Below, piece after piece: positions 1,100-58,740 of a DNA stretch of 64,000 bases; position 1 is the stretch's first letter, and each line of letters opens with the position of its first letter. The notes beneath the pieces were generated by a model, which worked only from the letters and a program-made list of their open reading frames with translations, ran no database searches and was not told the origin of the DNA. Source of the stretch: Nymphaea colorata. Its lineage: Eukaryota > Streptophyta > Magnoliopsida > Nymphaeales > Nymphaeaceae. The position numbers and the translations under genes are program-made. Where the stretch lies: NCBI RefSeq assembly GCF_008831285.2, contig NC_045141.1:16292106-16356105 (forward strand). The letters are read 5' to 3'.

Positions 1100-2116
1100 T
1101 TAAATATTGCTGCTTTTGTTCTTGTAGAATTCAATGACCCAGAAATTGTAAGCGCAACATATGGCCTTGATCCCTGTGAATCCAGCAACCTTTGCCAAAC
1201 CCTCAAACTCCTTCTCCGTCCTCTCCTTCCCTCCATGATTTAGTGCCAACATCAAGAGATCAAGTTGAAATACAGCAGATGTGCTTAAACTGTTATCTAC
1301 AGTCTCCGGCAAAACCATCTCCGCAATAATCACCTTGCCGTTCTCTGGCAGTGCCTTCCAACAATTCTCTAGCAGTTTCAGGCAATGATCATCATCCCAG
1401 TCATGAAGGATCCACTGCCACACGTAGATATTCATCACGGCATCTTAGAATGATAGATTAGTTAACTTGTTTTGGCACTTATTTTTTCAAGTCATGTGTG
1501 TGTCTACATATATAGAGAGTACAGTAACATTACAAAAACGGAGTCAGCGATAGTTGCGCAAAAGCAGAAAACAAAACAATAGTTGTGCAGATAAGATAAA
1601 AAGCAAGGGAACATGGGATACTTTAATTCATTTGAACCAGATAATAGACAAACAAACAAAGGGCCACAGCACCCCAACCAAGTAGCTCCAGCAGTCGGGA
1701 TATATGTGCATATGGGTCTCCCTACCTTTTCCAAAACAAAGTGTACTGCAATAAAACTATCAACCTATTCATCTAAAGAAATCAATCATGGGCACTTTGT
1801 CTTTACCTAATTTATGAAAATCAGAATAATGGACAAAGAATAAAAGGGCATATGAGCACAATGTCTTATTCTTGCAAAACAGTCTTCTAGGATCTATGGA
1901 ATAAGTTTTTTTCTGACCTGTCCATGCGAAATAATTGAAAAGAACATGCAATATTTCTGACCTGTCCAAACGTAACTTCCCTATGATGATTGTTTATGTG
2001 TATCAAACAATTGGCAAAAGCTTAAACTGTTACAAAAGAACATGCAATATTTATTTTCCTCTAAAACAAAGTGTTCTAGTGAACAAGCAAAGAGGGCCAC
2101 AGAAAAAGCAGCTCCT

Positions 2117-2147
<31 letters not shown>

Positions 2148-3899
2148 GATTAAGATACAAACCTTCATAAAGATGGCATCGCCTGATGGCACGCTGGCAA
2201 ACATGTCACCTCCAACATGTTGGACGCCTACATTGATGACAGCATAATGTAACAACCATGAGCAGCCTATGTACGCAACAATTGGCATAATTGTTCTTTT
2301 GACCCTAAATGTTGTGCTCGAGTTTGGGACTAACACATTAGCTCGTTTGGTTTGTTGAACATTGATTTCATTAATGAGCCGTCCCCAAGATCAACTTCTA
2401 CGAGTCAAACATGAACAACCCATTTTTTGAAATAAAAGACTTGTACTTTGAACTGAAAATTTAACTCATAAAATAAGAGTATTTGCATAAAATAATATAC
2501 ATCTTGCCCAATAAATTTCATGAACATCTAAAAAGTATAAGTAGAATTATAAAACTAACGAAATATATGTACAAGAATGTTTTCATTTGATACATGCATA
2601 TAATTACAACAAATCAAGGCCTATGTGCAATGAGAGGTCAGCGGGCAGGTTGCGCTCATTCATATTTTATTCACATACTTAGATGAAACAAACTGAGCTT
2701 TGCCTAGTATTTGAGCGCAACCCACAAGCCACTTTACCTCATGTTCTTGTGGATGTTCTTGGCAATACGGCGATTGAATTTTATGAAGAACTTCATTTTG
2801 ATGAAAATGAAAGGTAATTATGTATATCATGAATAATGTTCTGATATTTTTTTGAGATTTTTGAATATTATCCTAATTAAACATGCCCATCATATGATCA
2901 TCTCTACAAATGTCGGCTATTTGAATTATTTTCCTTCCATTTTTTCCAATTAAAATGAAAAACTGGTATCAAATTTGATACATACCAGGGAAATTTGGGG
3001 CCTCTTGAACGACATGTGGTAAGTCGAAGTTGAAGCCCTTGATTTGCGGGTACGTCGCTGTGATAAGCCCCAAGTTGGTACCAGTCCCTCCCCCAACGTC
3101 CACCAGTGTGCGGAGGCCATGGAAGCCGGTGTAGATCTCCAGGATCTTGTTCATGATGATGGTCGAGTGATGGTGCATTCCGTTGTTGAACAGCTTACTG
3201 AAACGTGGGTCCTTTCCATGGTAGTCAAAGCTGTTCATGCCGTAGGCCCTGTTGAAGGGGATGCCGCCTTCCAGCACTGCGTCTTTGAGGTGATACCATG
3301 ACTCCATGTACACCTTGTCTTGCAACATGAGAACCAGGGGACCCATGGAACCTCCATTCTCGTCTCCCAACAGGAACCTCGATTTCTCCCCCAGCCCATA
3401 TCCCCTATTCATAACGTCCCCATCCACAGAATGTTATCCTCCCGAATATTATACAATGTATTTGTTTTCTAAAGTCACATGCTGAGTTATTTCACTGGTC
3501 GTACTCATCAGATCATATACAGTGAAAGTTAAAGAGTCTAAATATATATATATATATATATATATAAGGAGACTGTTAGAGAGTTGATCACCATTGGGCT
3601 TTGCAGTCATGGTTGTTGTTGGTAATGGTGGTGGTGGAGCAGGTGAGAATTGAGTGGCTGGCAAGTAGTCGGAGGAGGCGCTCTAGCAGGGTCGGTGCTT
3701 CTGGATTCTTGGCAGACAATCGGGCTGCTATCTCATGCGATGTAAGCAGTGGGATTCCCTCCTGCTGATGGGCTTTCGCCATCACCTCCAAGAGGCCCAT
3801 CTCTATAGCAGCCTTGAGGGCCATGGGCAGCACGGAACCGCTCACCAAGTGCCATGCTGACAAGCATGCTTGCTCGTCCAGCCCATTGTTGTTGCTCAT
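1100..3899 (-). CDS. COMT-type SAM-dependent O-methyltransferase, four exons, apparently intact
   Basis: Predicted exons are 3899-3592, 3404-2986, 2227-2163 and 1414-1100, joining in phase to 368 aa, the usual length of plant caffeate/flavonoid/alkaloid-type O-methyltransferases. The N-terminal dimerisation domain is at about 1-110. The SAM-binding glycine motif DVGGGTG is at 205-211. The catalytic triad of the family is present: His268 (in WILHDW), Glu296 and Glu328 (in GGKERT), one residue off the alfalfa COMT numbering. The hallmark segments [15 protein letters not shown] and NGMHHHSTI are present. The start at 3899 was chosen because it aligns with the broken copies; in-frame ATGs at 3911 and 3974 are alternatives. 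All introns are GT-AG; the exon 2 acceptor (AG at 3406-3405) is weak but keeps phase. The residue equivalent to COMT Asn131 is Leu130, so the substrate is probably not a monolignol precursor. Cytosolic; substrate unknown. Confidence 0.9.
2117..2144. repeat. GA microsatellite in intron 3 of the O-methyltransferase
   Basis: About 14 GA units lie some 20 bp beyond the exon 3 donor site, inside the intron that separates exon 3 from exon 4. Confidence 0.9.
3541..3566. repeat. TA microsatellite in intron 1 of the O-methyltransferase
   Basis: About 12 TA units sit close to the exon 1 donor in the short first intron (3591-3405). Confidence 0.85.
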
Positions 3900-4162
3900 G
3901 ATCGGATGCATGGCTGTCCACTGATCTACTAGATGGAAGACAATAGTAATAGAGTCGAAGAATGTGTGCAGCAATTATGAAGGAAGTGAGAATTTGTGAA
4001 GCAATATTATGAAGGAAGTTGATCACCTGATCTTGTATCTACTTCGCCTGAAACCTCTACAAATGATAGCTCGAGTATGAGACCCTCTTTGGCTTCTTTC
4101 AATCTTGAAAGCTGAAGGCCTTTAGGTTGAACCTGACTCCCCACAAGGCCTGACATCCTACT

Positions 4163-5626: not shown

Positions 5627-5862
5627 GCTCGGCGGCTAACTTTCTGTCTCTCACATAATATCTCGACCTATCTAGCTGTAAAGGGAGTCGGGGAGGCGTG
5701 GGGAGAGGAGAACATAAAGCATAGTTGTTTGCCCAAAAGGCTTGGACTCTTCAAACACGGTTTCTGGATGCAGCTCCATGTCAAAGCTCTGGAGAAGACG
5801 GGCGAGCACAATGTATACCGATCTTAATGAAAATGAAATTCCCGGGCACACCCTGCGGCTGT
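5627..5862 (-). pseudogene. CYP82 3'-end fragment (a fourth P450 copy)
   Basis: This segment matches the 3' end of exon 2 of the downstream CYP82 copies (compare 6553-6785). It covers the last roughly 63 codons, from the haem-cysteine region (CPGISF) to the stop at 5672-5674, plus about 45 bp of 3' flank. The homology stops abruptly at 5862 inside the haem-binding motif, and a 22-bp sequence that also marks the termini of the copia element (CGAGAATGGTGAAGAAGAAAGC) follows within a few bases. The 3' flank at 5510-5600 also resembles CYP82 3' flank. It is a remnant of a P450 gene cut by deletion and cannot encode an enzyme. Confidence 0.85.
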
Positions 5863-5866
5863 CATA

Positions 5867-6595
5867 ACGAGAATGGTGAAGAAGAAAGCTAAGAATAACT
5901 TCCTTTTCTCTTTCTCTTTGACGTGGCTTTTTTGGCTGCGAACAGGAATGTAGATTGGTTCTTCACCAACTTTGTCTTCAATCTGCTTAACTGGATCTGG
6001 TCAAAAGATTTGGATCCGATTACTGGTCAGATTCGAATTTTGGCGTACAGCTTCACAGTCGAACCCAAACACAGGTTTCATATAATCTTGATCATTGGAC
6101 AAAAATGGAAAAAATTAAAAACCAATAAATTTCGTCGCATCGTTAGCCATATATATCGATTTCAGATGCATTTGATCTTTCTCTTTTGTAATGTCCAAAC
6201 TAAATGACATGATTGGCGATCGACCAGCTGTTTGTTAATTAAACTATGTAAGCCAAAGATATCACATTGCCTTGACCATCTACCAATTTAATAAGTTCAT
6301 CCAGGGCAACGAATTAGACATACATACGTAGGTCATTGTATCATACAAGTCATATATGTTGTAATAATATGACCTCTAACTTGTGCTTTCGTCTGAATAA
6401 CTTTTTCAGGCGGTGGGCTTCAAGTCCTCCCTGCTCACCGGGATTTTTCCGCTCACGGTATTGTTAATGATTCAAATACAGATAAAAAAAATAAAAAGAC
6501 AATAAGAGATATTTCTTTTTAATAAAATACCAAATATCTTACATTTCGGTATACTCGGCGGCTAACTTTCTCTCTCACATAATATCTCGACCTAG
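5867..6595. other. 3' flank of CYP82 copy 1 (duplicated)
   Basis: Nearly identical to 26020-26747 and recognisably similar to 50275-50922. A 94-codon open frame on the plus strand (5923-6207) is identical in copy 2, but it is absent from copy 3, where stops interrupt it, and it has no family features, so I treat it as non-coding. The 3' UTR of the P450 gene is presumably here. Confidence 0.6.
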
Positions 6596-9106
6596 CTAGC
6601 TGTAAAGGGAGTCAGGGAGGCGTGGGGAGAGGAGAACATGAAGCATAGTTGTTCGCCCAAAAGCCTTGGACTCTTCAAACACGGTTTCCGGATGCAGCTC
6701 CATGTCAAAGCTGTGGAGAAGACGGGCGAGCACAATGTATACTGACCGCAATGAAAATGAAATTCCCGGGCACACCCTGCGCCCCGATCCAAACGGAATC
6801 AACTGGAAATGCTGGCCCCCAACATCCACATCACTTTCCAAAAATCTCTCCGGCTGAAACTCGGCGTGGTCCGGCCACACCCTCGGGTCACGCTGTATCT
6901 TCCATGCATTGACCACTAGCATGGTGCCGGCCGGAACGCCAAAGCCACCAATTTGGCAGTCCTCCCTGGCTTCTCTTGGAGGCAGCAATGGTGTCGGTGG
7001 GCGAAGTCTGAAACTCTCCTTGACAACTGCTTGAAGATACACCAATTTGCTGATATCGGATTCATCCACAATCCTGCCTTTGCCGACTGCTTTGTCCAAC
7101 TCATCTTGGGCCTTCTTCAGTGCTTGGGGATTGAGTAACAGCAAGTGTAATGTCTGGATCAAGGTGGCGGATGTGGTATCGTTACCCCCAATTATCATTG
7201 CCTGAAAAGAGGTAAAAAAAAAAAAAACTTTTATGTCAATTATTCAAGCATTCCATTCAAGGGCATTTAACAACAGGAATAGTAACTCCGTTCCAAAGAT
7301 TAGAACAAATTCATATGACGTTAAAATGTATGAATTTGCTCCAATGTGCCCAATCTTTTGTACATATTCATGAAATAATGTGTTAAACGTTTTTGTACCA
7401 AACGCCCCCTAAAGTTCTTGTTTTTGTATTCACTTTTATCATATGGAAAGGTGAAACCTCCTCATGACTCAACGACTCTGAAATTCGAGTGAATTTTTCA
7501 AACTCAAGCAAATATGTTGAAAGTAAATTTGACGAGAGTAGAGAAATCTCAATCGATCACTTTCTAATCCGTTGAAATTATGAAAAGGTAACTCAATGGG
7601 TCCATTTGATTAAGTAATCGTTTTTACTATTTGACAATTTTCATTATTTTAATAATTATTGTTTATTTTCCCAATCAGTTGATCCATTCAAATAGTTTAT
7701 TTTATTTTTATACCTTGCAAGCTATAATTTTTCTCAAATTGTTGTTCTTTTTTCTTGTCAAATGCTTTTTAATATTCTAGTATTGAAAAAAAGCAAAACC
7801 GATTTGGTTCAGTTTCTGAAGACTTTCTATATCTTTAAGAAAAAAAAATTAATTCAAAAATTCATTTCAATTAGAAGGCTGCCACAAGATTTTGAGGAGA
7901 ATTAACATACTTTTCCATTTTAGAATTTGTCAGCTTCAAACTAGCCTTTTTCATCGTACTTATTCAAAACCAGCTTCATATATTTTGAACTTGTATAAGA
8001 TGATTCCTTAACAAATCTAGCACCTAAAGGTTTGGTATTTATCAAATTTTTATACGTACCTAATTGCGTATTCCAACCCACCAACCCCGTACGAATGTTC
8101 ATACCAAAATTGGAAATACGAAGGCTACTCAACAAATAACAAATAAGGAATGAGTTTTTACCAGTGCCGTCGTTTTCACCACCATGTCCGCATCCGTGTC
8201 ATCCCCTACAAGTGACAGCAGGACATCGATGAAGTCATGGTCCCCCTCCCGGAAACCGGATAAGTTTTGCCGGCGATGCTCTGCCACGCAGCGGCCGATG
8301 AGAACGTCCAAATTCCCGGCCACCCTTTTCATGGCAGCGATACAGCCATTGATGTCGAGAAACTCGAGAAAAGGAAGAAAATCAGACACCACGAAGGCCG
8401 CGAGAAGGTCCAGCATCTCCCTCGTGCAGTGCGCTGTCTCTCGTGCCTTCGAGTCGTCCTCCGAGCCTCCCACGACGTAGCCAGCCCCTGCGACAGTTCG
8501 GGTCACCATGTTGAAGGTGAGCTCGCTCAGCAACTTTCTCACCTCCAATTTCACGGGCCGCTGCTGGTTGTTCTGCCAGAGAGTGTGGATGTGGTTTACT
8601 CGAGCGCCGATTTCCGACTCGCGGACTTGTTTGAAGGATTCGATCCGCCGGTTGGAAAGCATCTCGAGCGTGGTGATCTTCCTCATCTGGCGCCAGTAGT
8701 CTCCGTAAGGGGCGAAGCCGAACATGGTGGAATCGTAGGCCAGATGCTTCGTGGCACTGTTCCAAGGCCTGTTGGAGAAGGCGAGATCGCTGGTGGTGAA
8801 GCACTCCTTCGCCATCTCCCAGCTGCTGACCACGAGCACCCGGCGGAAGCCCAATCGGAGCATCATGGCAGGGCCGTATTTGTCGGCGAGTTCACCGTAG
8901 ATCTCATGCAGCGAACGAGATTTGTCGAAGAGCAGATGCAAGTGGCCGATGATGGGGAGGCGGCCTGGAGGAGTCGGAGGATCAGGTGCAGAGCCAGCTC
9001 TCCTTCTCTTGACCGTAAACAGCTTCACGAGCTTGAAGCAGAGGAGGAGGCAGAATAGTGTGGCAGAAAGGAGAGGAAAATCTGGGAAGCGTGGAAGGAG
9101 AGCCAT
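6596..9106 (-). CDS. CYP82-family cytochrome P450, copy 1, two exons, intact
   Basis: Exons 9106-8162 (315 codons) and 7201-6596 (201 codons plus stop) join in phase 0 across a GT-AG intron of 960 bp to give 516 aa, normal for a class II plant P450. Visible features: N-terminal membrane anchor at about 10-30; basic patch and proline hinge PPTPPGRLPIIG at 43-54; C-helix WRQMR at 138-142; I-helix GGNDTT at 320-325; ExxR at 377-380; PERF at 432-435; haem loop FGSGRRVCPG with axial Cys459. VVSSWEMAKECF, YDSTMFGFAPYG and EMLSNRR are CYP82-type signatures. Expected to be an ER-bound monooxygenase using NADPH-P450 reductase; known CYP82s hydroxylate alkaloids, flavones, coumarins or terpenoids, and the substrate here is unknown. 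It differs from copy 2 at seven residues, including Trp115 where copies 2 and 3 have Arg in the FSNRPR segment. GC-rich relative to its flanks. Confidence 0.93.
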
Positions 9107-9164
9107 GTCGATCTGGTTATTGGAGCCGTGACGCTTGCTGCAATTAAAGATAGAACTATGTCTT

Positions 9165-9170
9165 CTTATA
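9165..9170 (-). promoter_or_regulatory. Candidate TATA box, CYP82 copy 1
   Basis: The minus strand reads TATAAG about 60 bp upstream of the ATG. The surrounding block (GTTATAAGAAGACA) is conserved upstream of all three P450 copies and upstream of the O-methyltransferase fragment at 57993, which supports a core promoter function. Confidence 0.55.
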
Positions 9171-10085
9171 ACGGTGAGAAGTGCAAGAAGCAAAGTATAA
9201 TTTTTCATAATTTTTATATAAGTTAAACAAAAATTTATTCAAATTTTAAAAATCTAATAAAAGGTCATAGCCCCCTTCCCCGCACCGTTTAACACCTGGT
9301 GCATGGATTTTAACTAAAAAGATCACTAAATAGAGATGCTGTCAGCTTCTTCGTGCTTTTAATAATAATTTGTGGTATGAATTGTTCTATACATATATAA
9401 TACCAGTAGATGCTTACACTTGAAGGTTTGTTTTTAATTTGCACCTGTCCAAGTAAAAAAAATTGCTCATTTCACAAGATGAGCTACTTTGTGAGCAGGT
9501 GTTACTAACGAGTCCCTATTTGAAAAAGAAAATGTCACAAGGATTTCGAGACGAAGTTGTTCTACCATTAGCCACACAAGTTTCCTTTTTACTGTATAAG
9601 AAAGATAAAAACTGGAAGAAAAATATCGTTCCCTACCAAAATGGCGTGGATACCTGGGCAGATATTAATATTATTACATCTGGTCTTTGGGTTGGTGTAG
9701 GAAGAAGCAGGGTGGGTGTTCCTGGTTCACAGCCCACCACCTACGTGTCGATGCGAGGAAGATTCTCTGGTTTTTGCATTTTCGTCGTTTGGGTGATTGG
9801 TCGAGCCACGTGCAACCAGGTGTCACCAGGAGGGAAATAGATCCAATTGCATATGCACGCCAAAGTATAAAAAAAAAAAAAAAGAACGGATGGGGTACTT
9901 TTGAAATGTTTTTAAAAAGTAATGTTTATTTTAATAACTTTTTTTTTATCTTTTTAAAATGATTTTTAATTATAAAGAGAGTATTTTAGTCATTGCATAT
10001 CTTACTATACACAATTTTCTATGCATAAAAGTGTAAAATTAATTGTCCACAGAACCATGCATATAACCAGCTTCACACCCTACCT
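9171..10085. other. Upstream region of CYP82 copy 1
   Basis: No gene. Parts match the upstream DNA of CYP82 copy 2 (9885-10080 with 29695-29900) and parts match the DNA upstream of the O-methyltransferase fragment at 58 kb (9190-9330 with 58490-58625). Copy 1 diverges from copy 2 just outside the coding region even though the genes themselves are almost identical. Confidence 0.6.
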
Positions 10086-11742
10086 ATGCAATATCCAACC
10101 AATAAATTGTGCATTGTGAATTGTGGAACGCATGATATAACCAACTTCACACTTGGTTGTGGAGTCCATAAGTATCGTTCTATATATCTCATGTTTCCGC
10201 TTTTCATACGTAATGTTAAAGAGTACAATATTTTTTCAAATATAGCAAAATCATTCGTCCAATGGGCGGTATAATCATATTAATTAAGATCTTCCTGTGC
10301 CTGTTAAATACCAATGTTCTTTTTTTTTTTTTGTGGGCTTGTTAAATATCAATGTTGTTGTTTTTTTTTTGGTTGATTGCATAAAAGCTAATCAGCCTTT
10401 GTAATTTATAGCAGCACAATAAAAAACAGCAACATTGATGGATGATCAGTAGTCTAAAGGGGTATCCAGACCAATCGGGCAGTTGGGATTTAACCAAAGT
10501 AATCTCTCTCTCTCTCTCCTCTCTTTCTACAAATGTAATTATATTATTTACATTTGATTTGGATCAAATATCCAACCAAACCATTCCAAACAAAAATATA
10601 TGATATAAAAAAATTAATATCAAATTAAGAAATCAGATTGGATTTGGATTTAAGAAATGATATCCAATCAGATTCAGATATACATATCCCATTGGATTCA
10701 GATTTTGATTACGGTTGGATTAGTAGTTTTAAATATATATACATACATATGAGTTCAATGCTGATGTGCTGGATGTTACCAGATATTAAAATTTTAAATT
10801 TGTCACTAAAAAATAATCACTAAATTGACATTAGCTGCAGTTTATGGTATGACGACGGTTTTTAGTAGTTATAACGGCAATTTAAAGTTTTTTTAGCAAC
10901 AAACTTCTAAAATTTAATCATCTGCCAGCCATGTGGCACACGACAATATTGACTTTTCCTATACATCCACTTAATTATACTCTGCAAAAGGGTAGTAATG
11001 CATACATATGTTTGACAAACATCTTATGGCACCAAAAAAAGGTGGCATTAAACTCTATGTAAATGAAATCTTTTTTCATTCTTTTTCTGTAATTATTCTT
11101 TATAGTCTTTAACGGAAGGGGATTACTCCATACCTATTTCATTGGTTCCTCAATTTTTTTCACTGGGAGCATGCCATACGTGATTTGTGAAACATTTGGA
11201 TGTATTAGTGCCATGGAGTATTATATCTATTACATAGGTCAAGCATAAGTACATACACACTAGAAAGGCAATAAAGAAGAAGCAATGAATTATGCGAAAA
11301 AGTAAGAAAAGGCAACTTGTAGATGCACTAAATAGTTTGTGATATCTAAGGAAGTATAAATGCATGCATGGTTATATGGTCACATTCCTATCTTCTTATT
11401 GTTCTTTACAATGATAAATTGGTACTCCTTACTTGCACCAAGATTCTTTTTTTTTTTCCTTTATTTTTATCTTATTTTTTCATTTTATTGAAACTTGAAC
11501 TGCATAAGCATGTAATTACGACATGCATGCATTGAAGCCAAAAGCAATTGGAACAATGAGGATTGTTCTTTTTTGTTCTGATAAGCAACCACAAACCGAA
11601 TGATTGAACTTTACAATTGAAGACAATGACTCACAATAACCTAAGCAAAGCAAAATACTTCTTCAACCTAAGCTCCAAAAAGAAAAACCTTATCATCTAA
11701 GGGATCTCATTACACACACACACACACAGACACACACACAGA

Positions 11743-11801
<59 letters not shown>

Positions 11802-12080
11802 CAATGCATAATAATGTAACAAATAACAAAATGATAAATTCAAAGAAGATAAAAGAGACACCAATTTTAACGTGAAAACCCATCTCAAAATGAGGTAAAA
11901 ATCACAAGGTTGAGAACAACCCAACAAGAAATCCACTATGTAATTTGAAAATATCTGCAAGAGAACAATATATAATGCTTACACTCCAAAATCCCAAGAA
12001 ACACCAAAATGGAGAAACAATGAAGCAAATGAAAAGGAGAAAGTGGAAGAATATCACCTAATTGAGAGTGATGACTTTTG
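10086..12080. other. Non-coding AT-rich segment absent from the other unit
   Basis: Relative to copy 2, where the sequence passes directly from CTTCACATCCT to AACAATGAGCCCTC at about 29900, copy 1 has about 2 kb extra here. No coding potential or recognisable transposon ends were found. It contains poly-T runs, TC runs near 10504 and the microsatellite at 11708-11798. Confidence 0.5.
11708..11798. repeat. Compound microsatellite (CA)n(CATA)n(TA)n
   Basis: CA repeats, then about eight CATA units, then about 14 TA units, directly seen. Confidence 0.9.
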
Positions 12081-15000
12081 TACAACAATGAGCCCTCCTT
12101 CTCTTGCCTTATTCTTCACTAAACACAAAGAAACAAATTGAAAGAAAATCCCAAACGATAATGGAAGCATTCTCCTTCTCAATGTCTTTTTGTCCCCCTT
12201 TTTCATCCCTTTAATGGGTTCAAAAAAGAGTAGGAAACAATAACTCTCCCTCTCTTTTTCTCCATTGCTCCTCAAGAAGCACCCACAAAGAAGAAGAAGA
12301 TGCTTCAAGGCACACTACGCACACAAAAAAAGAAATGGGGCTCACTCTTTTCTTAAAGCCCTTGTTTGAAGCTTTTAGATTTAGTCCACAAAATTTCTTG
12401 ATTTGCCCATTTTCAGATTTTCTTCAAAGGTGGATCTTCTTTTCTTTTACTTTTTTGGCTTGAGCATTGATCCTCCACATGGAAGGGATCCAACTTGAAA
12501 ATTTTCTCTCAGTTTTTTGTTTTTGTTTTTCTTTTCAATTAATTTGGATGTATAAAACCATCAAATTTGCACTCTCCATGATGGACATATAGATTTTTGT
12601 CTAGTTAAAAAATAGTTTTGTTCTGATACAATAAAAGGATAGTTTAGTTGTTTTAGCAATTAGCAATTGAGGAAACGAAAGCAAAAGTTTTCCAAAGTGC
12701 TTCACAAATATGATGTCTTGCCTATATCCATAATGAACCTGTTATTCTCAAGCCAATGGCCAAATTTATACAAGTTTCAAGTACAATGACTTCCCTTTCC
12801 ATTTGAGATGTTAATCTATTTTTTGTTAAGATTATGATAACTTGCACTACTGTTGCCATTTCTTCAGATAAATTCTAGATTTGTCGGAATAAAATGTTGG
12901 CACTTTCTGATTCAAGTTCCAAACCCATAGATATTGCCACTTTTGCTGTTTCTACCATGTTTTACCCTCATTACCTCTTGTTTCCTAAATATAACATAAG
13001 ATTTGTTCCAAAAGAAAAATCTTCCTCAGCATGCCTACTAGTTAGATTGAATCTAACGGTACATACTGCTCGCTTAAGAAGACAGAACGGCTGAAATTAT
13101 TTGCCTGAATTAATTGCTTTGGAATTAAGTTTATACTTTATTGATTCATGTATATAAAGGTAGTGGTTGCTATATAATTTTATAGAAATTCATGATGATG
13201 TACTACTGAATGTTGTTTTTGTGCCATACCCTTGAGGGGCCTTTTGGTGATAGTAATATGTTATTATTGTCTCATGAATGTGCCCCAAAAAATGAGCTAG
13301 GTTCATAAAATATTGTAACAAGTATTCCATGAATTTACTCTATTTCTTATGGAAGATTTACATGCACAAACATTGTGTTACTATTGCCAAATGGTTTCTA
13401 AGGAAGTCTGATCAGCCTCATAGACCACAAATACCTTGGCGAAAACTATAATGTAGTTAGCTCTTGGTTACAAAAATTTCCAATTGCCAAACTATTGGGC
13501 TTTGTTTAGATAATGCTCTTAAATGGCCATTTAGCATTTATCAAAATGTATGTTATTGGCCAAATCTTTTTGCAAAAAACGATTTTTGAAACTAAAACCG
13601 TTCTATATGCAGCTTCCATAATCAGATTGATACATTGAGAAATCATAACCAGTTGTTAATTTCCTGAGTTTCTTAGTTATTCAGTTATTTTATTTGTTCT
13701 GTCTTTAATAATTATGTGCGTTGTTTATTACCCAATTTAGATTATTTAGAGTAGGAGGTCAGTCATTTTTATTCTCCTGTTTGTAGTTAATAAGTCCTCA
13801 TGGTTTAAGTACAAGCAATAAAGAAGCAGAATGATTTTTTATGAGCAAGCTATGGTTTCTACATCAAATGAAATTATATATATATAAGTATAAAAGAACA
13901 GGAGAAAAGGTTTCAAAAGGCAGCCACCTGTCAGAATGTTCATTGCTACTCTGCAGTTGCAGCCATTCCATATTCCCTAATTGTTTTTCTTTTTCCCATA
14001 AAGCTAGAAAAGTCACCTTATGTGACCCTTAGATGCCCCAACTAATTCCGTTCATCACCTCTCACTTTGTTTCCTTGTTCTTGATCTTTTCTACTTAAAC
14101 CTGCTTCGTTTTGTTCTTAGTTATCCGTTTTAAAATGGAGAAACTTGAATACTTTCCTTAGAGTCGGCCAGCATAAAGTGAACTGTAACAGGTGAAACTG
14201 AAAGTGAAGTGATTCGTACGTGCCTTTTACACTATGTTACATAATTTGTTCTATTAGTGCATATAGACACTTAATTTGGCAGTACTGCTTTATCTTTCTT
14301 TTTTTTTTGTGTGTGTTACGATCACCATGATCACTAGTCGATGTCATTGCAACATTGCAGAAACTGCAAGAGACACCTCACAGACTGCCCAATCAACTTT
14401 TTGTTTACAACATCAAGAAGTAAATCTTCAACCTGCTTCCATCTTCTGCAAAGATAGTAAAATGTAATTCCCTTTCCTCAGTTTCTTCTATGCCTCCGCA
14501 TAGGCAATGGGGTGGTCAATGCCGTCTGCGCCCTCACGCTGCTCACTAATGCGTCTGTCTTACCGCTCTCTCTGCATGAGGTGTAAATAAGAGGAGGCAG
14601 AGAAGGAGCCATAAATTCTTGGTTTCAACGGCAGAACTACAGTTGTTAAGGGCGAAAACATAATTTTTCAAAATTTTTATATACATTAAACTAAAGTAAT
14701 TAATTTTTAAAAATTACATATAAATTTTTGAATTTTTCAAATGTAAAGAGATCCAAGCCCCTCTGCCTCCGCTCCTCTTCAACGGGCACCGACGGATAGT
14801 CATGACCCTGAGGGCAAGTTTGAACTTGCAGCCACAACCACTACTTAAATAACTAGTTGTTAGCCCCTACCTACTTAACCTGAGGTCGGTGTGAAGCAGT
14901 GTTACGAAAATCTGATCGCTTGGTTTGTTGCTCGATGGAGGTGGATAGTTTGGATCAAACGGATAGTTTGGATCAAACATATGTCCTCCGTCTCTGAAAA

Positions 15001-15960: not shown

Positions 15961-16169
15961 CACCAGTGGATCAGTGGATCCTGCACTGGTGGTGGCGGAG
16001 AAGGTGAGAGAGAATTGAGTAGCTAGCAAGCAGTCGGAGCAGGCGCTCTATCAGGGCCGGCGCTTCCGGATTCTTTGCACACAGCTATTTCCGCCATCTC
16101 TCCAGATGTAAGCAGTGTTGATCCCTCTCCCTTACTAGCTTCCTCTTCCAACCCACTGCTGGTGCTCAT
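15961..16169 (-). pseudogene. O-methyltransferase exon 1 fragment (decayed)
   Basis: The minus strand from the ATG at 16169 matches exon 1 of the gene at 1.1-3.9 kb and the fragments at 33.6 and 57.8 kb, including the segment for [17 protein letters not shown] and the exon-end donor context. About 115 bp from the middle of the exon are missing, an internal piece is also lost and the frame is broken. No exons 2-4 follow at lower coordinates. It is a dead relic. Confidence 0.85.
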
Positions 16170-17264
16170 GGTCGGATGGTTGTCCACTATTCTGCGAGAT
16201 AAAAGGCAAAAGTAATAAAATCAACGAATTTGCAGAAGCGAAGGTTACCTTTTTTAAGTTTACTTCACTGAGAATGCTCTACAAAAGAGATGCCTAGATT
16301 GGGTATCGGGCTCCCTTTCCTTTGTGATCCTCTTTGTAGTTTCTTCTAAAACTTATGGCTCCTCTTAAAATCCCTTATCCTAATCTTCATAGGGAAGGCT
16401 ACGAGGAGTCATTTACTGTTAGGCTGTCACAGTTGCAGCAATTTATTCAGCTTGGGCAACGTCATGGACGTTTGGAGTGAGGCTTTTTGAGGCATAGATA
16501 GCAAGGACACAGTTATTCTACATATTTCGATATTTAAAATAAGATTTTGATATTGGCACTATTAAGTACTTTCCGGTGAGCTAGAATGTTTATGTTCTAG
16601 TTATTTGAAACAAAGTAATGGTTTTAAGAGTTACAATTGCTTTTAGGTATAGTTGGAAGAATCACACAGATAGTAGCTTTGGCAATTATATTTATTCTAA
16701 AACCAACAAGGATCATTGCATTCCAAATGATAGCAAGAATTATGGTGGTAACTCAGTTGCACTAAACTTTCAAGTTAAATATTGTAGTCTCTACATACTT
16801 TTAAACAAGGCTCAAGTAAGAAAGACCAGTACGAGACTTAGAACATGCATAGCAATTGTTGCACGTATGAGAAATAAGGATATTACATAAAAAATGTAAA
16901 CAAAAAGTGTGTATTGCTAACCGCAGAACGTGTGGCAATTAAAAAATGTAAATATTTGCACAACTTTTTATTGTCAAATCATATACGCCGACAAAGCATG
17001 ACAAAGAAAAGTTGAAGGCACATATAGTGCAATATCAACCATATAAATCGTGTCGGAGGATGCACAGAAGTGGTATGCAGCCTGCTACTTGAAAAGTTGA
17101 AGGAAAGCTAAGTTGCTATGACCAGTGGTTCATACGTGGGGAGGATTTGCTTGGTGAAAAGTATCATCTTGAAAATTGAAAGTTATTGGGCGAGACACTT
17201 CTAGTTACCAGCAGGCACTGTAGAGCGTCTTGAGCAGGTCATGGCCAGATTTGTTTGGGGTGGC
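16170..17264. other. Block B right part: former 5' flank of the O-methyltransferase copy
   Basis: Collinear with 33826-33985 and then, after the insertion of element 2, with 42505-43265. The uninterrupted target site of element 2 (TATTT) is preserved at 16523-16527. A 90-codon open frame at 16618-16890 is broken in the other copy and is not considered a gene. Confidence 0.7.
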
Positions 17265-38989: not shown

Positions 38990-39260
38990 ATCTCATCTTT
39001 TCAAGTTCCCGGTGCACTTGAGCATAGCCTCTTGGCTCTAAAATAGAGTTGAGAGCTATCTCTTATGGCTATGAGAAAATGAAAAAGAGAGAAAAATAAA
39101 AGAAGCAAAAGAACAACAAGAATATATTCAAGAAATTAGATAACATAACTCAAGCATGAAAATGAAAGATCATCTCATCTTCTCATGCTCTCGATGCATT
39201 TGAGCATAGCCTCTTGGCTGTAAAATAGAGTTGAGAACTATCTCTTTTAGCCATGAGAAG
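38990..39260. repeat. Two tandem units of about 170 bp inside X2
   Basis: Words such as GAGCATAGCCTCTTGGCT and AAATAGAGTTGAGA occur at about 39018 and 39200. The same unit, in the opposite orientation, is present four times in X4 at 63330-63990. Confidence 0.7.
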
Positions 39261-39605
39261 AAGAAAAAGAGAAGAAAGAAAATATGAGACAAATGAGAGG
39301 GATGATGATTACATACCTCTAAATGAGAAAATGACTTAAGGAAGATGAACACCTTCACTTGAAGATCCTCTTTAGTGAAGCTCTAAGATAATGCCTCCAA
39401 AAGGGTTGTAGCTTGCTCCAAGTTGGAGAGAAATGGAAAGAGAAAGAGGAAGAGAGAGAGAGAGCTCAAGAGAAACCCTAAGTGTTCATGTGAAAATATT
39501 CTAGGGTTTCTCCCAAGAAGCACTATTGCCCAAGAGGGGGAAAGTGGGGGGTATTTATAGAGGATTTTAGAGCCAAAACTCAAAATTTGATTTTTTTATT
39601 TGTAA

Positions 39606-40200
39606 AAGACCAAAATCGCCCTCTAAAAGGAGGTTCTTTATAAAAAAGAAGGGGCAAATGAGTCTTGTTTAACTAAAAAACCAAAATTACCCTCTCAAAG
39701 GAGGTTCTTTGTCAAAAAAGAGGGGTAAATGAGTCTTGTTTACCAAAAAGACCAAAATTACCCTCTAAAAGGAGGTTCTTTGTGAAAAATGAGGGGCAAA
39801 TGGGTCTTGTTTACCAAAAAGACCAAAATTACCCTCTAAAAGGAGGTTCTTTGTAAAAAATGAGGGGTAAATGGGTCTTGTTAAAAGACCAAAATTACAT
39901 TCTAAAAAGAAGTTCTTTGTAAAAAAGGAGGGGCAAATTTGTCTTGTTTACCAAAAAAACCAAAATTACCCTCTGAAAGGAGGTTTTTTGTCAAAAAGGA
40001 GGGGCAAATGGGTCTTGTTTACCAAAAAGTCTAAAGTTTTCCTCTAAAAAGAGGTTCTTTGTCAAAAAGAAGGGGCAAATGAGTCTTGTTTACCAAAAAT
40101 ACCCTCTAAAATGATGTTCTGTGTAAAAAAGGAGGGGCAAATGGGTCTTGTTTACCAAAAAGACCAAAATTTACCCTCTAAAAGGAGGTCCTTTTGTGAA
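39606..40200. repeat. Minisatellite in X2, period about 70 bp
   Basis: About eight to nine imperfect units, each with ACCAAAATTACCCTCTAAAA, GGAGGTTCTTTGT and GGGGCAAATG.GTCTTGTTTA words. Lies between the LTR start and the TATA box on the minus strand, that is, in the U3-like part of X2. Confidence 0.9.
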
Positions 40201-40366
40201 AATGAATGGCAAATGAGTCTCAAATGGTTGATTTGGATTTGAACTTGGGTTTTTGGATCTAATTTGGATTTGGATTGTGGCTTTGTATCAATTTTGATCC
40301 AAAAATTGGGTTTTGTGTTTTTAATAAAAGAGGGCATTCTTTTTTAAAAAATTTGGGGTAATTACA

Positions 40367-42197: not shown

Positions 42198-42206
42198 GAG
42201 GGGGAG
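42198..42206 (+). other. Polypurine tract of element 2
   Basis: GAGGGGGAG immediately before the 3' LTR, the usual site of plus-strand priming. Confidence 0.85.
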
Positions 42207-42504
42207 TGTTGAAACGGTTCTACAAGAGGCTCGTTATGGCAATACTATTCATGGTATTTCCATGATTAGTTGGATAGAGTTACCTATATTAAAAGTTTCC
42301 CACCATGAATTGCCATTAATTTTTCCTTCCATGATTCCTTGCTTTGTAACTATTGTATTCACTCACGTTAAATAGCGGTTATAGAGTGAAACAACAATAT
42401 ACAGAAAATATACAATACGATCTCTCCCTTGCTTCTCGTGGACGTAGGCATACATGCCGAACCACATATATTCTTTGCTTTCTCATTCCTCTCCCTAATC
42501 TTTA
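42207..42504 (+). repeat. 3' LTR of element 2
   Basis: 298 bp, TGTTGAAACGG...CTAATCTTTA, followed by the right target duplication TATTT. Confidence 0.92.
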
Positions 42505-50922: not shown

Positions 50923-53490
50923 CTAGCTGTAAAGGGAGTCAGGGAGGCGTGGGGAGAGGAGAACATGAAGCATAGTTGTTCGCCCAAAAGCCTTGGACTC
51001 TTCAAACACGGTTTCCGGATGCAGCTCCATGTCAAAGCTGTGGAGAAGACGGGCGAGCACAATGTATACCGACCGCAATGAAAACGAAATTCCCGGGCAC
51101 ACCCTGCGGCCTGATCCAAACGGAATCAACTGGAAATGCTGGCCCCCAACATCCACATCACTTTCCAAAAACCTCTCCGGCTGAAACTCGGCGTGGTCCG
51201 CCCATACCCGCGGATCAAGCTGTATCCTCCATGCATTGACCACTAGCATGGTGCCGGCCGGAACGCCAAAGCCACCAGTTTGGCAGTCCTCCCTGGCTTC
51301 TCTTAAAGGCAGCAATGGTGCCGGTGGGCGAAGTCTAAAACTCTCCTTGACCACTGCTTGAAGATACACCAAATTTTTTTGATATCGGATTCATCCACAA
51401 TCCTGTCTTTGCCGACTGCTTTGTCTAACTCATCTTGGGCCTTCTTCGGTGCTTGGGGATTGAGTAACAGCAAGTGTAATGTCTGGGCCAAGGTTGCTGA
51501 TGCGGTGTCGTTGCCCCCAATTATCATTGCCTGAAAAGAGGGTTAAAAAAAAAAACTTTTATGTCAATTATTCAAGAATTCCATTCAAGGGCATTAAGCA
51601 ACAGGAATACTAACTCTGTTTCAAAAGATTAGAAAAAATTCATATGACGTTAAAATGTATGAATTTGCTCCAATCTGCCCAATCTTTTGAACATATTCAT
51701 GAAATAATGTTGAACCAATTCATGACATAATGTTGTAACCCAGCTGATCTCACATGGCACGATTGGATCTAACCAGTAGCTTGGAAGCTAGACAAAAATC
51801 TATACTACCAGACGTCTATGCATAGTTAATGAAATGAATTATAGCTCCATCAGTGAAAAAAATTAAAGATGTGAATATATATTTAAACTTTATAGTACTC
51901 ATCAAAATAATGCATACATGCTCATTATTCACTTTTCTCATATGGAAAGGCGAAACCCACTCATGACTCACGACTCTGTAATTCGAGTGAATTTTTCAAA
52001 CTTAAGCAAATATGTTGAAAGTAAATTCGACGACAGTAGACACATCTCCATCGATCACTTTCTAATCCGTTGAAATTATGAAAAGGTAATTCCTTGGGTC
52101 CATTGATTTAGTAATCGTTTTTACTATTTGACAGTTTTCATTATTTTAATCATTGTTGTTATTTTCCCAAGCAGTTGATCCAGACAAATCATTTTTTTTT
52201 TATTTTTATACCTTTCTTCTGCAACCTATAATTTTTCTCAAACTCTTTTTCTTTCTTCTTGTCAAATGCTTTTGAATATTCTAATATTGAAAAAAAGCAA
52301 AACCGATTTGGTTCAGTTTCTGCAGACTTTCTGAATCTTTCAGAAAAAAAAAATTAATTCAAAAATTCATTTCCATTAGAAGGCTGCCACTTGTATAAGA
52401 TGATTCCTTACCAAATCTAGCACCTAAAGGTTTGGTATTTATCAAATTTTTATACGTACCCCACCACCACCCCGTATGAATATTTATACCCAATTAGAAA
52501 TCCAAATCCTATTCATCAAATAACAAATAAGGAATGAGTTTTTACCAGTGCCGTCGTCTTCACCACCGTGTCCGCCTCCGTGTCCTTCCCTACAAGTGAC
52601 AGCAGGACATCGATGAAGTCATGGTCCCCGTCCCGGAAACCGGATGCCTTTTGCCGGCGATGCTCTGCCACGCAGCGGCCGATGAGAGCGTTCAAATTCC
52701 CGGCGACCCTTTTCATGACAGCGATGCAGCCATTGATGTCGAGAAACTCGAGAAGAGGAAGAAAATCAGACACCACAAACGCCGCGAGAAGGTCCAGCAT
52801 CTCCCTCGTGCAGTCCGCTGTCTCTCTCGCCTTCGAGTCTTCCTCCGAGCCTCCCACAACGTAGCCAGCCCCTGCCACAGTTCGGGTCACCGTGTTGAAG
52901 GTGAGCTCGCTCAGCAACTTTCTCGCCTCCAATTTCACGGGCCGCTGCTGGTTGTTCTGCCAGAGACTGTCGATGTGGTTTACTCGAGCGCCGATTTCCG
53001 ACTCGCGGACTTGTTTGAAGGATTCCACCCGCCGGTTGGAGAGCATCTCGACCGTGGTGATATTCCTCATCTGGCGCCAGTAGTCTCCGTAAGGGGCGAA
53101 GCCGAACATGGTGGAATCATAGGCCAGATGCTTCGCGGCACTGTTCCTAGGCCTGTTGGAGAAGGCGAGATCGCTGGTGGTGAAGCACTCCTTCGCCATC
53201 TCCCAGCTGCTGACCACCAGCACCCGGCGGAAGCCCAATTGGAGCATCATGGCAGGGCCGTATTTGTCGGCGAGTTCACCGTAGATCTCATGCAGCGAAC
53301 GAGATTTGTCGAAGAGCAGATGCAAGTGGCCGATGATGGGGAGGCGGCCTGGAGGAGTCGGAAGATCAGGTGCAGAGCCAGCTCTCCTTCTCTTGACCGT
53401 AAACAGCTTCACGAGCTTGAAGCAGAGGAGGAGGGAGAATAGTGTGGCACAAAGGAGAGGAAAATCCGGGAAGGGTGGAAGGAGAGCCAT
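50923..53490 (-). pseudogene. CYP82-family cytochrome P450, copy 3, frameshifted
   Basis: Exon 1 (53490-52546, 315 codons) is open, with Arg115 and all expected N-terminal features. Exon 2 (51530-50923) is 608 bp instead of 606: at 51371-51380 a T-run replaces the sequence TTTGC of the other copies and adds two bases. This shifts the frame at about residue 366, before the ExxR motif, and a stop follows within about 20 codons of the altered frame. The remaining 149 codons, including PERF and the haem loop, are open in the other frame. The enzyme would lack its haem ligand, so the copy is dead unless the two bases are a sequencing error. The intron is diverged and shorter in its middle than in copies 1 and 2. 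Confidence 0.85.
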
Positions 53491-53547
53491 GTCGATCTGG
53501 TTATTGGAGCCGCGACGCTTGGTGCAATTAAAGATGAACCATGTCTT

Positions 53548-53553
53548 CTTATA
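53548..53553 (-). promoter_or_regulatory. Candidate TATA box, CYP82 copy 3
   Basis: TATAAG on the minus strand about 60 bp upstream of the ATG, same context as in copies 1 and 2. Confidence 0.5.
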
Positions 53554-54535
53554 ACGGTGACAAGTGCAAGGTAGTGGCTTTCAGTCGAGAGAAAGTCGAG
53601 TGGGCGGTAGGCATTAAGGGATGGATACTTTAGTTAATGTTTTTTATTTTTTATTTTTATTTTTATTTTTATTTTCATAATTTTTTTAATAAATTAAAAG
53701 TATTTTTAGTCATTAACATAATTGCACTATAGCGCACATAACTAGTTTCTCTTTGAGGAGAGACCGTAGTTACGTTTCGAGACAATACACATAACTACAG
53801 CTGTCCTGGATGCTGTTAAGTAGGAATTTTTTTTTTATTGTAGGAACTCAATTATAGTTTTAAAATTTTAACAAAAATTAAAATGTATATTTTTTTAAAT
53901 TAATACTGAACTATGATTATGGTTTTAAAATTTTAAAAAAAATGCAATATATAATTTTTCATAATTTTTATATAAGTTAACATAATATTTACATATTGCT
54001 CAAAAAAAATCTATCTGATATCTGTAGCTAGAGTGATTCTCTTCCTGTTTTTTATTGTTCATAAATCCATTCTTTTGTTAAGAAATGATGGGGGTTTAGC
54101 CCGGCAGGCTTTGGAGCAGAAATCTCTCTTCCGTTAATTATCCAAGTGCTAGATCCCTTTATACTTGGTTTGAAGGTTCCTACATAAGCATGATCAATGA
54201 AGTTCACGTGAATAACACAGTAAGCTTAAAGTAAAGCAGGAGAAGACGAAAATGTGAGTGGATTCCTATTCTTTTCCCTCATTTTTCTCTTCGCGCCTGA
54301 CCTTATCCTTTCCCCATTTGTTTCCCTTTCATTGGTTTTATGCGAGAAACTTCGGTGTAACTGCTTATAATGCTTCCCTTTCGTTGGTTGGCACACTCTT
54401 TCGTGCGCCTTCTTTTTGCTAATACTGCACCTGTGTAGAGGTCATTCCAACGGTGCATTATTGATTCTGTGAGGTCCACGATGATGTGCTTGACAAGCCC
54501 ATCCTTATCAATATTTTAATTAATATCTTGCGTAG
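53554..54535. other. Upstream region of CYP82 copy 3
   Basis: No gene. The part 53554-54010 matches 58039-58540 upstream of the O-methyltransferase fragment (shared AACTATGATTATGGTTT and GAGACAATACACA words). From 54010 to 54535 nothing recognisable. Confidence 0.6.
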
Positions 54536-54540
54536 CATGC

Positions 54541-54760
54541 CAACTGTCTAGCAGTTTCTGGCAATGATCATCATCCAAGGATCCACTGCAGCATAGTTAA
54601 TGATCATGGCGTCTTAGAATAATGGATTAATAAATTGTTTCGTGCTTAAATTTTAAGTCTGCATGTGTGTGAGTGTGTGTGTCTCTATCTATGTATGTGT
54701 AATAAAAGATGGAATCAGTGGTAGTTGGACCAAAGCAGAACACATCGAATACCCAAAAAT
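54541..54760 (-). pseudogene. O-methyltransferase exon 4 start and intron scrap
   Basis: 54546-54610 matches 1370-1445, the 5' part of exon 4 with its acceptor (CTGGCAATGATCATCATCC and GGATCCACTGC words); about 13 bp of the HDW codons are deleted. 54640-54745 continues with decayed intron 3 sequence (compare 1470-1570). It is in the right order and strand to be the tail of the gene whose exon 1 is at 57993. Confidence 0.75.
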
Positions 54761-56215: not shown

Positions 56216-57685
56216 AACATCTGCTTCCTCCACCCTAAGGCACTTACCGACAAGCCTGGGCATTCCTGAATTAATTTATACACTTCTTATGGATGGTGAA
56301 GCTCTTCTACCCTCCTATATTTGAATATAAGAATATATGGGCATGGAGTATAGAGAAGATGCATGGTTTTCAAATTCCTTTTAATTAAAAAGCAATGGAT
56401 CTAGGGCGATTTGAATTGTGGATCTCAATTCACCTCTGATTTTAGATTGGTGGTCGAATGCTGACTGGAAGCGCTAGATAAGATTTTTTGTCATGGAGCA
56501 GATGCGGCAACTGCTACAAGATAATGGATATAAGATCAGACCAGCCAAAAAATAAGAAATTAGAATGATCGGCGAAACACAAAGGAACTAAAATTTGTCA
56601 CATTAAAGAAAAGAAAGATCCTTACTAATGGAACTGATAAAGGTCAGAACCGCGCCTCGTAAAATTACTTGGGGCACTCAAAAGAGTAGCAGAGGTAGGA
56701 GTAGGCCGATGCGGCCATTGTCCCTACCAGACCACATAAATTGTCATATTTATATAGTATTGAAACACAGCCAAGCAAAAGAGAGTATGTACTTGCAATC
56801 ACAATACAATAAAAACTTTATGGTTGCAACGCATAAGAGCCCAATGAATGCACAATGTTCTCCCTCAACAATGAGACTGTTCCACACTAATTTACTTCAA
56901 AGCCATCGATATTACTACACTGTTTCAAATGGAAATGTTCATTGTTCTTGAAACAGTACTCATACTAGAGGGATCCAAATCTATCGGATGTCTGATGTTG
57001 CAAAATGACCAAATAACTGGAAAACCATTGCTAAAAAGGTTTCTTAAGCTGCCACTAAAAATGCCATGAAGCATCACTATGCTATAAATTATCACTAACG
57101 CGACTGTTATAATTGATTTATAATGACATACTGTTACTTTTTAGCCATCAGTAAAATACCAAGGATTGTTGTTCTATTTTTTAGCCATCGGTAAAATACT
57201 ATGAACTGTTGTTAAAAGCATGGTCAGCCATTGCTATATTATAAATCGTCACAACATAAAAAATTTCCCTACATATTTCTCCAGTCATCCAGAAGCCACT
57301 AGCCTCTCACACGGCTAGCTTGATGGCTGGATGGATAAAGCTCCTTGCTGGGGAGGCGACACCAGAGGATGGCGCAGCAGAAACGGAGGGTTTGCAGAAA
57401 ACAGAAATTGCAAAGGGAGGCGAGTGAGTGCCTTACTCTCACGAGAGGTCGTCGGTTTTTGAAAAGGCATGGACTTAGATAGCTATTGACTAAAATACAT
57501 TTAGCTTATATTGAAAAATTTTGTTTGTAAAGATAAAATTAGAAATAAAAAATGAAAAATAAAAAAACTATAAAAAACATTTATTTTTAATAAATTATCA
57601 AAATATCTTTCCTTCCTATGGCACACGATACTTTCTCTTTCTAAAAGGAGATAAATTAAGGGAGAGGAAAAGAGAAGATTATCAC
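56216..57685. other. No recognisable gene
   Basis: AT-rich DNA. Short open frames (for example 56628-56951) have no family features. 57060-57250 contains repeated TAGCCATC(A/G)GTAAAATAC words, probably an old transposon terminus. Exons 2 and 3 of the O-methyltransferase, expected here if the 58-kb copy were complete, were not found. Confidence 0.6.
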
Positions 57686-57993
57686 CAGTGGATCCTGCCA
57701 TCGTGATTTCGGTTGGTGTTGGTGGTGGCCGAGCAGGTGAGGATTGAGTAGCTAGCAAGCAGTCGGAGCAGGCGCTCTATCAGGGCCGGTGCATCCGGAT
57801 TCTTTGCACACAGTCGTGCTGCTATCTCTCCAGATGTAAGCATTGTTGATCCCGCCCCCTTACTAGCTTCCGCCATCACCTCTAAGATGCCCAGCTCTAT
57901 AACAGCCCTGAGGCCCATGGGCAGAACAGCAGCACTCGCCAGTTGCCATGCTGAAAGGCATGCTTCCTCTTCCAACCCACAGCTGGAGCTCAT
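57686..57993 (-). pseudogene. O-methyltransferase exon 1, open, with a CYP82-type promoter
   Basis: The ATG at 57993 opens a full-length exon 1 (308 bp, about 102 codons, phase-2 end) with no stop, ending in TG|GTGATAATC exactly like the intact gene. It begins MSSSCGLEEEACLSAWQLAS and carries the dimerisation-domain features ([36 protein letters not shown]). Exons 2 and 3 are missing and exon 4 survives only as a scrap near 54.55 kb, so no enzyme can be made. Upstream, the O-methyltransferase homology ends at about 58008 and CYP82 promoter sequence starts. A truncated transcript is possible. Confidence 0.85.
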
Positions 57994-58008
57994 GGTCGGA
58001 TGCTTGTT

Positions 58009-58740
58009 ACAATTAAAGATGAACTATGTCTTCTTATAACGGTGACAAGAGCAAGGTAGTGACTTTCAAAACAAAATTGCGTGCCACGTATGCAAAAAAG
58101 GTATTTTGGTAATTTGTAAAAAAGAAAATGTTTTTTATATTTTATTTTTATTTTTGTCTTTTTAAAAAAATTAATAAACTAATGGTATTTTAGCCATTAA
58201 CTATGTCTGTGCAGAAGTATACCACATATAACTAGGCTCGCTTTGAGGAGAGACCACAATTGGGTTTGGAGACAATACACAAGTCTGTGAACCGCACCAC
58301 AGTAGCAACTGCTTGGGTAGGGGTAGAAATTTTTTGCTCAGGATGCTGAGCATAAGTATGAATTTTTTTTGTTGTAGAGACTGAACTATAGTTTTAAAAT
58401 TTTAACAAAAATTGGAATGATGTTTTTTAAATTAAGACTGAACTATGATTATGGTTTCAAAATTTAAAAAAGAAGCAAAACATAAATTTTCATAATTTTT
58501 ATACAAGTTAAACTAAAATTTACATAATTTTTAAAAATCTAATCAAAGGTCATAGCTCCTTGCCTCCACCCTTTAACACCTGGGTCATGGATTTTAACTA
58601 AAAAAGGTCACTAAATACAGATGTCAACTTCAGAGTAACTTGCTCACAAGGATGTGCATTGTGGAACGCATGATATAACCAACTTGGTCATGTTTTTTCA
58701 AATATCGCAAAATCATTGGTTGAATGGGCAGTAATAACCA
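58009..58740. promoter_or_regulatory. CYP82-type promoter joined to the O-methyltransferase fragment
   Basis: From 58009 on the sequence follows the DNA upstream of the P450 genes: 58012-58070 with 29303-29365 and 53520-53585, 58250-58540 with 53755-54000, and 58490-58625 with 9205-9335, then 58650-58735 with 10105-10280. The TATAAG element is at 58033-58038 on the minus strand, 40-45 bp from the ATG. The junction carries the short homology GCTTGTT. Confidence 0.75.

Follow-up and report, generated by a model that had tools for sequence, protein, structure and literature searches.

Here, we analysed a stretch of 64,000 nucleotides from Nymphaea colorata (C4:16292106-16356105, on a contig of 27.7 Mb in a genome of 408 Mb; hereafter the window), in which CYP82-type cytochrome P450 genes alternate with genes for COMT-like O-methyltransferases (OMTs). 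Examination of the neighbouring DNA on both sides, 100 kb of it on the right, revealed that the whole array measures about 150 kb and extends past both window edges. We consider it rather probable that this is a birth-and-death array in which the P450 hydroxylates a substrate and an OMT then methylates the product, with one intact OMT gene, OMT5, under P450 control. More tentatively, and as a proposal that we hold to be quite possible but short of probable, a single local deletion within the P450-OMT array may have wired OMT5, as a second pathway enzyme, into the regulon of the P450. Loci are labelled C0 to C3 for P450s, and OMT-1 and OMT1 to OMT9 for OMTs; coordinates are relative to the window unless the contig is given. 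The following features carry the finding:

6596-9106, minus strand: C1, intact CYP82-type P450 gene, 516 aa, two exons (8162-9106 and 6596-7201)
9107-9349, minus strand: C1 upstream region, leader and TATA-like core retained (9107-9187), then distal upstream DNA
26748-29257, minus strand: C2, intact CYP82-type P450 gene, 516 aa (28313-29257 and 26748-27353)
29258-29520, minus strand: C2 promoter and leader, of the type common to C3, OMT4 and OMT5
50926-53490, minus strand: C3, CYP82-type gene, exon 1 at 52546-53490, exon 2 from 51530 with a frameshift near 51372
53491-54013, minus strand: C3 promoter and leader, used for the promoter comparisons
57685-57993, minus strand: OMT4, exon-1 remnant (about 57.69-57.99 kb), open frame retained
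57994-58541, minus strand: CYP82-type promoter and leader joined directly ahead of OMT4, 72% identical to the C3 upstream DNA over 562 aligned columns
87125-89952, right flank: OMT5, intact

A P450-type promoter ahead of methyltransferase genes

We compared the 500 bp upstream of ten genes of the array. The upstream DNA of C1, C2, C3, OMT4 and OMT5 matched mutually with 66-328 bits, compared to 15-25 bits when set against the remaining five OMTs. The pair of C3 and OMT5 reached 243 bits, while the best of 100 dinucleotide shuffles yielded 45.9. OMT5 and C1 have additional upstream pieces in common as far as the comparison reached (1.5 kb). The other five OMTs formed two tight sets, namely OMT-1/OMT1 (398 bits) and OMT2/OMT7/OMT9 (82-226 bits). 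Between C3 and OMT5, a core of about 60 bases, comprising a TATA-like element and the leader, is about 92% identical; the preceding 200 bases are 58-70% identical.

Does this likeness simply reflect a repeat that occurs throughout the genome? In a genome-wide search with the C3 promoter (514-base query; 40 of 194 candidates scored, to which all results of this search refer), matches longer than 150 bp were all located in the array, at C3, OMT4, C2, OMT5 and the truncated P450 on the left, with short pieces at C1. Matches outside the array were pieces of 47-148 bp within query positions 2-201. Positions 265-510 matched only C2, C3, OMT4, OMT5 and, in part, C1; for the core, a shared repeat was thus rejected as the source.

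In a tree of OMT exon 1, OMT4 and OMT5 are sisters placed beside OMT2/OMT3, with OMT7/OMT9 and then OMT1/OMT-1 further out. Since OMT2 and OMT7/OMT9 share another leader and OMT4 and OMT5 fall between them on this tree, the P450-type promoter and leader of OMT4 and OMT5 appear to be the derived state. How could an OMT gene end up behind the promoter of a P450? A few bases separate the junction from the OMT start codon that follows it, and about 4 bases there are common to both leaders (judged by eye). We suggest a deletion from the leader of a P450 gene to that of the next OMT gene, which the 4-base match could have helped. Such an event would remove the P450 gene and join its leader to the downstream OMT leader, placing the OMT4/OMT5 lineage behind a CYP82 promoter. 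Both pairs at the left end of the array have the P450 gene upstream of the OMT gene in the direction of transcription, which is the order required by the deletion model.

OMT4 itself retains an open frame of about 100 codons in exon 1, corresponding to a lone dimerisation domain behind the P450 promoter, and a truncated product could be transcribed. A dominant-negative micro-protein encoded by this frame was considered; dN/dS (the ratio of nonsynonymous to synonymous substitution rates) of about 0.64 between OMT3 and OMT4, calculated from an alignment with an unreliable tail, does not strongly indicate constraint.

Composition and origin of the array

The remaining features of the array are:

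-13875 to -11211, left flank: OMT-1, intact
-7641 to -6004, left flank: 5'-truncated P450 gene
1100-3911, minus strand: OMT1, intact, COMT-like, 372 aa, native OMT leader
5628-5874, minus strand: C0, 3' fragment of a CYP82-type gene, fused to the downstream region of C1
5866-9187, strand not assigned: tract of near-identity between C1 and C2 (99.3%)
15970-16260, minus strand: OMT2, exon-1 remnant (about 15.99-16.15 kb), native OMT leader
33531-33829, minus strand: OMT3, exon-1 remnant (about 33.53-33.82 kb), tblastn E 4e-29
33986-42504, plus strand: copia-type long terminal repeat (LTR) element, target duplication TATTT
54526-54744, minus strand: scrap of an OMT last exon with adjoining intron, 69.5% nucleotide identity to OMT1, E 1e-22
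94.4 kb, right flank: OMT fragment
117313-119389, plus strand, right flank: OMT7, intact
123.2 kb, right flank: OMT fragment
135.1-137.1 kb, right flank: OMT9, broken

A preliminary description of the window had listed four OMT and four CYP82 loci on one strand; all eight were recovered at the given positions on the minus strand (tblastn E-values from 4e-7 for OMT2, over 26 residues, down to 0; zero matches of the protein queries on one reversed-sequence control). The alternation of both families in a duplicated array, which it had also noted, holds with the refinement that it is broken once, where the C0 fragment adjoins C1. It had further suggested looking beyond the window edges; the array indeed continues on both sides with intact OMT-1, OMT5 and OMT7. 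Within the window, OMT1, C1 and C2 are intact by sequence, C3 is frameshifted and OMT2 to OMT4 are exon-1 remnants, so that three of the four OMT loci are broken. Across the array, four of ten OMT and two of five P450 loci are intact, with the 54.5-kb scrap, a DNA-level match without a counterpart at protein level (tblastn), left uncounted. OMT1 comprises four exons (3592-3911, 2986-3404, 2163-2227 and 1100-1414) separated by GT-AG introns. C0 is 95.2% identical to C1 over 228 bp, and its piece at 5675-5857 encodes the last 61 P450 residues (456-516; tblastn). OMT2 aligns with OMT1 in two pieces (79% and 75% nucleotide identity). Rfam gave nothing at gathering score.

Self-comparison showed that blocks repeat at spacings of 20.15 kb and about 24.2 kb, including intergenic DNA and relics of copia elements. 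Outside the C1/C2 tract, they diverge by Kimura two-parameter (K2P) distances of 0.038-0.169 (85-96% identity; 13 segments, measured on BLAST-alignable DNA only), in line with the earlier statement that the copies share intergenic DNA. The alternation arose by tandem block duplication. Collinearity between the blocks of C1 and C2 extends from OMT exon 1 to the P450, and OMT exons 2-4 are absent from both. Because this loss is common to both blocks, the OMT had been truncated before the C1/C2 block was copied, and what was amplified was a P450 with a dead OMT instead of a working pair. The intact OMT1 represents a separate, older OMT lineage. Of the coupling of both enzymes in one repeat unit, as previously proposed, the physical part stands, since the blocks hold both P450 and OMT DNA, while the functional part is not supported. 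About 2 kb at 10083-12083 in the C1 block, an insertion with TA-rich repeats, has no counterpart at the corresponding point (29901) in the C2 block.

The copia element (33986-42504) has LTRs of 297 bp with 92.3% identity (K2P 0.082) and is flanked by a 5-bp target duplication, TATTT; its interior contains an array of tandem repeats of about 71 bp (39.5-40.2 kb). It sits in the C2 block, and as the C1 block retains an empty site near 16522, it inserted after the block duplication. Carriage of the P450/OMT pair by transposons is thus not favoured as the main cause, because the only datable copia element postdates the duplication. For this one element, the transposon-driven shuffling that the preliminary description had named as a possible refutation is not borne out.

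Over a tract of 3.3 kb that takes in the intron and 3' flank, C1 and C2 share 99.3% identity (K2P 0.0073). Only four columns differ between 5866 and about 8014, one of them an indel, and exon 2 is identical; identity drops to 95% in the final window ahead of 9187, beyond which the nearest alignable pieces share 80-89% identity. C3 and C2 share about 92% identity across the same region. Such near-identity within older blocks is probably due to gene conversion, or else the tract was recently copied locally. Strong purifying selection was rejected as its cause, as intron and 3' flank are equally identical. Residue 115 (window positions of about 8764 and 28915) is Trp in C1 and Arg in both C2 and C3; it presumably belongs to the B-C loop region, which usually contacts the substrate, and the difference may alter specificity.

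The locus stands alone in the genome among the matches listed (P450 search: 91 rows, 83 of 437 candidates scored, so that P450s may be missed; OMT searches: 79 and 87 rows). Among these, P450 copies of more than 90% identity are confined to the array, the next relatives being 56-63% identical (C4:13.72-13.84 Mb), and both families occur close together only here, with the nearest other pair about 215 kb apart on contig C1. The 100 kb on the right contain another five OMT loci and no additional P450 of this type. On the left, 49-64 kb from the window (C4:16227861-16243475), are three CYP82-type genes that share about 41-53% identity with C1, with no OMTs there among the matches listed. Genes resembling CPP1 and Frigida lie at about -37.5 and -32 kb.

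Putative joint function of both enzymes

OMT1 contains both domains expected for a plant enzyme of this kind (PF00891, 4.5e-71; PF08100, 2e-17), and the combination of dimerisation and O-methyltransferase domains in OMT1 and OMT5 is that of COMT-like (class I) enzymes. OMT1 is 60.2% identical over 349 residues to the solved chain 1kyw, which we take to be alfalfa COMT; 6i70, 6iwt and 7v6j are other close chains of COMT type. The best four such chains scored 472-479 bits, compared to 338-343 bits for scoulerine 9-O-methyltransferase. The catalytic residues H272, E300 and E332 of OMT1, presumably equivalent to His269, Glu297 and Glu329 of alfalfa COMT, are kept in OMT-1, OMT5 and OMT7. Of 18 positions that we take to form the pocket and catalytic site, six are changed compared to COMT (N131L, L136Y, A162S, I316L, I319L and H323L), and by these positions OMT1 does not have the pocket of a true lignin COMT. 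An ordinary lignin COMT is therefore disfavoured, and we class OMT1 as COMT-like. Several of the 18 positions also vary between the array's intact OMTs. These four genes gave pairwise dN/dS values of 0.23-0.32 in five of six comparisons, which points to constraint. A scan of prokaryote genomes for relatives of OMT1 retrieved four distant bacterial loci and was uninformative.

The P450 matches PF00067 over nearly its full length (2.4e-85). Its translation, inspected by eye, contains what we take to be the A-type motifs: GGxDTT in the I-helix, ExxR, PERF and the heme-binding FGSGRRxCPG. By convention, membership of the CYP82 family is tied to about 40% identity or more to named members; identity to a manually entered tobacco CYP82E4 sequence was 38% over 499 columns (350 bits). 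Ferruginol synthase was the best solved match (249 bits, from a different program than the CYP82E4 score), and the name CYP82 does not occur among the 14 distinct solved sequences with E ≤ 1e-30. The label 'CYP82-type' is thus well motivated by sequence, with strict family membership not proved.

COMT-like enzymes methylate phenols. Substrates of CYP82 enzymes include alkaloids, flavonoids, furanocoumarins, lignans and terpenoids (PMC9936527, PMC4935968). By analogy, hydroxylation followed by methylation would be the simplest joint function, and we infer the following order: the P450 would act first, on an aromatic or alkaloid substrate that it hydroxylates, the product may then be methylated by at least one intact OMT (OMT-1, OMT1, OMT5, OMT7), and OMT5 would be under the transcriptional control of the P450. 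As the two families have a promoter in common in part of the array, a coordinated function appears more credible than from adjacency alone. Co-regulation would be expected of C2 and OMT5, more than of C1 and OMT1, because OMT1 is without the P450 promoter and about 415 bp of this promoter are missing at C1.

Several observations weigh against this reading. OMT1 and OMT-1, the intact OMTs nearest to the intact P450s, are without a P450 promoter, and C1 retains only the core, whereas OMT4 has about 415 bp of proximal promoter that C1 does not; expression of C1 may hence differ from that of C2. The upstream link between OMT-1/OMT1 and OMT2/OMT7/OMT9 is weak (27-42 bits, within shuffle range, short leader only), and the exon-1 tree, with supports of 0.81-0.90 (1.0 for OMT-1/OMT1), is midpoint-rooted without an outgroup. 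The C3/OMT5 core, far more alike than its neighbouring bases, looks as if it were under selection for shared control, but selection is not proved, as the distal 150 bases or so are also alike (82-90%), partly through a short element that recurs elsewhere in the genome, so that conservation is not limited to the core. OMT5 further departs from usually conserved COMT residues (NFDK for NFDL, F172L), which makes its activity uncertain. The close pair OMT-1/OMT1 has a dN/dS of 0.72; seven of the eight coding-site differences between C1 and C2, all in exon 1, change the protein; and dN/dS between C2 and C3, the latter a pseudogene, is about 0.63 in exon 1 versus 0.18-0.30 further along, in later exon 2. 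By definition, a plant biosynthetic gene cluster unites adjoining genes of two or more non-homologous enzyme families, as a rule three or more, whose members are co-expressed and serve one pathway. Two such families adjoin here, and no third enzyme type was found among the 30 open frames of the window compared with Pfam and the partly examined flanks (101 frames of at least 110 aa, ten read and two scanned).

What else could have produced such a locus? The families may be chance neighbours in a decaying tandem array without a joint pathway, the alternation being a by-product and each family, if working, working alone. We find this doubtful, yet it deserves serious attention: the C1/C2 blocks had lost a working OMT before they were copied, three of five P450 and six of ten OMT loci are broken, and the examined frames contain no further enzyme types. 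It does not readily account for four intact OMTs with dN/dS of 0.23-0.32 in five of six comparisons, for a P450 promoter ahead of an intact OMT, or for the fact that, among the matches listed, no other OMT array comes closer than about 215 kb to a P450 of this kind. That copia elements carried or recombined the blocks and so united the families is improbable. Relics of copia elements do separate the blocks and also occur in the flanks, but the element at 33986-42504, the only one dated, has its own target duplication, faces an empty site in the other block and postdates the duplication.

Two further alternatives concern parts of the argument, and we regard both as unlikely. The near-identity of C1 and C2 could be a sequencing or assembly artefact, with copies homogenised by polishing; a single assembly served as source and exon 2 is identical, whereas copy-specific indels and substitutions and the fall to 95% towards the 5' end (last window before 9187) speak for genuine copies. 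The promoter could also have moved in reverse, with the P450 acquiring a promoter of the OMT4/5 type. The P450 side is not polarisable, as no promoter match was reported at more distant CYP82 relatives among the candidates scored; still, OMT2 and OMT7/OMT9 share a different leader with OMT4 and OMT5 between them on the tree, and OMT1 and OMT-1 are likewise without the P450-type promoter. We thus prefer a move from P450 to OMT.

Relation to known gene clusters

In the noscapine cluster of opium poppy, CYP82Y1, CYP82X1 and CYP82X2 lie together with PsMT1-3 and serve one pathway (PMC4935968, PMC8521590). CYP82 P450s and methyltransferases adjoin in both loci; however, the poppy cluster encodes ten enzymes of five classes, compared to the two classes seen in the Nymphaea array. 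Several of its genes are attributed to putative dispersed duplications, with old tandem duplication not ruled out (PMC8521590), in contrast to local block copying here, and OMT1 is closer to COMT-type chains than to scoulerine 9-O-methyltransferase. Arrays of gene pairs, such as the EAS-EAH pairs of Capsicum (reviewed in PMC9298681), come closer in build. There, too, a P450 gene and a non-homologous enzyme gene form repeated pairs in a region rich in both; the Capsicum pairs are described as being under a bidirectional promoter, while in Nymphaea the genes point in the same direction and the promoter was duplicated before a member of the other family. A tandem CYP82D array in Tripterygium spans 133 kb, with four residues beside 11 complete genes (PMC9936527). 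It resembles the present one in the tandem amplification of CYP82 genes with gene residues in transposon-rich DNA, and differs in that a single enzyme family is described.

The Nymphaea locus contains a repeated, adjacent, non-homologous pair that arose by pair duplication, with the OMT partner truncated in the C1/C2 blocks. It represents a known kind of locus, the array of gene pairs, combined with a candidate mechanism of local co-regulation. Titles and abstract openings revealed no CYP82-OMT array of this build and no such promoter fusion, subscription journals being mostly outside the search. Recruitment into regulons via promoter evolution is a named model for the co-regulation of clusters (PMC9298681). 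One array provides internal controls, namely OMTs with the other leader, promoter-fused OMTs and donor-type P450s, and expression data can test the proposal directly. For the question of how unrelated genes of plant metabolic clusters become co-regulated, the fusion of a P450 promoter to a neighbouring methyltransferase gene would be a physical route, and suggests how two enzymes could become switched on together.

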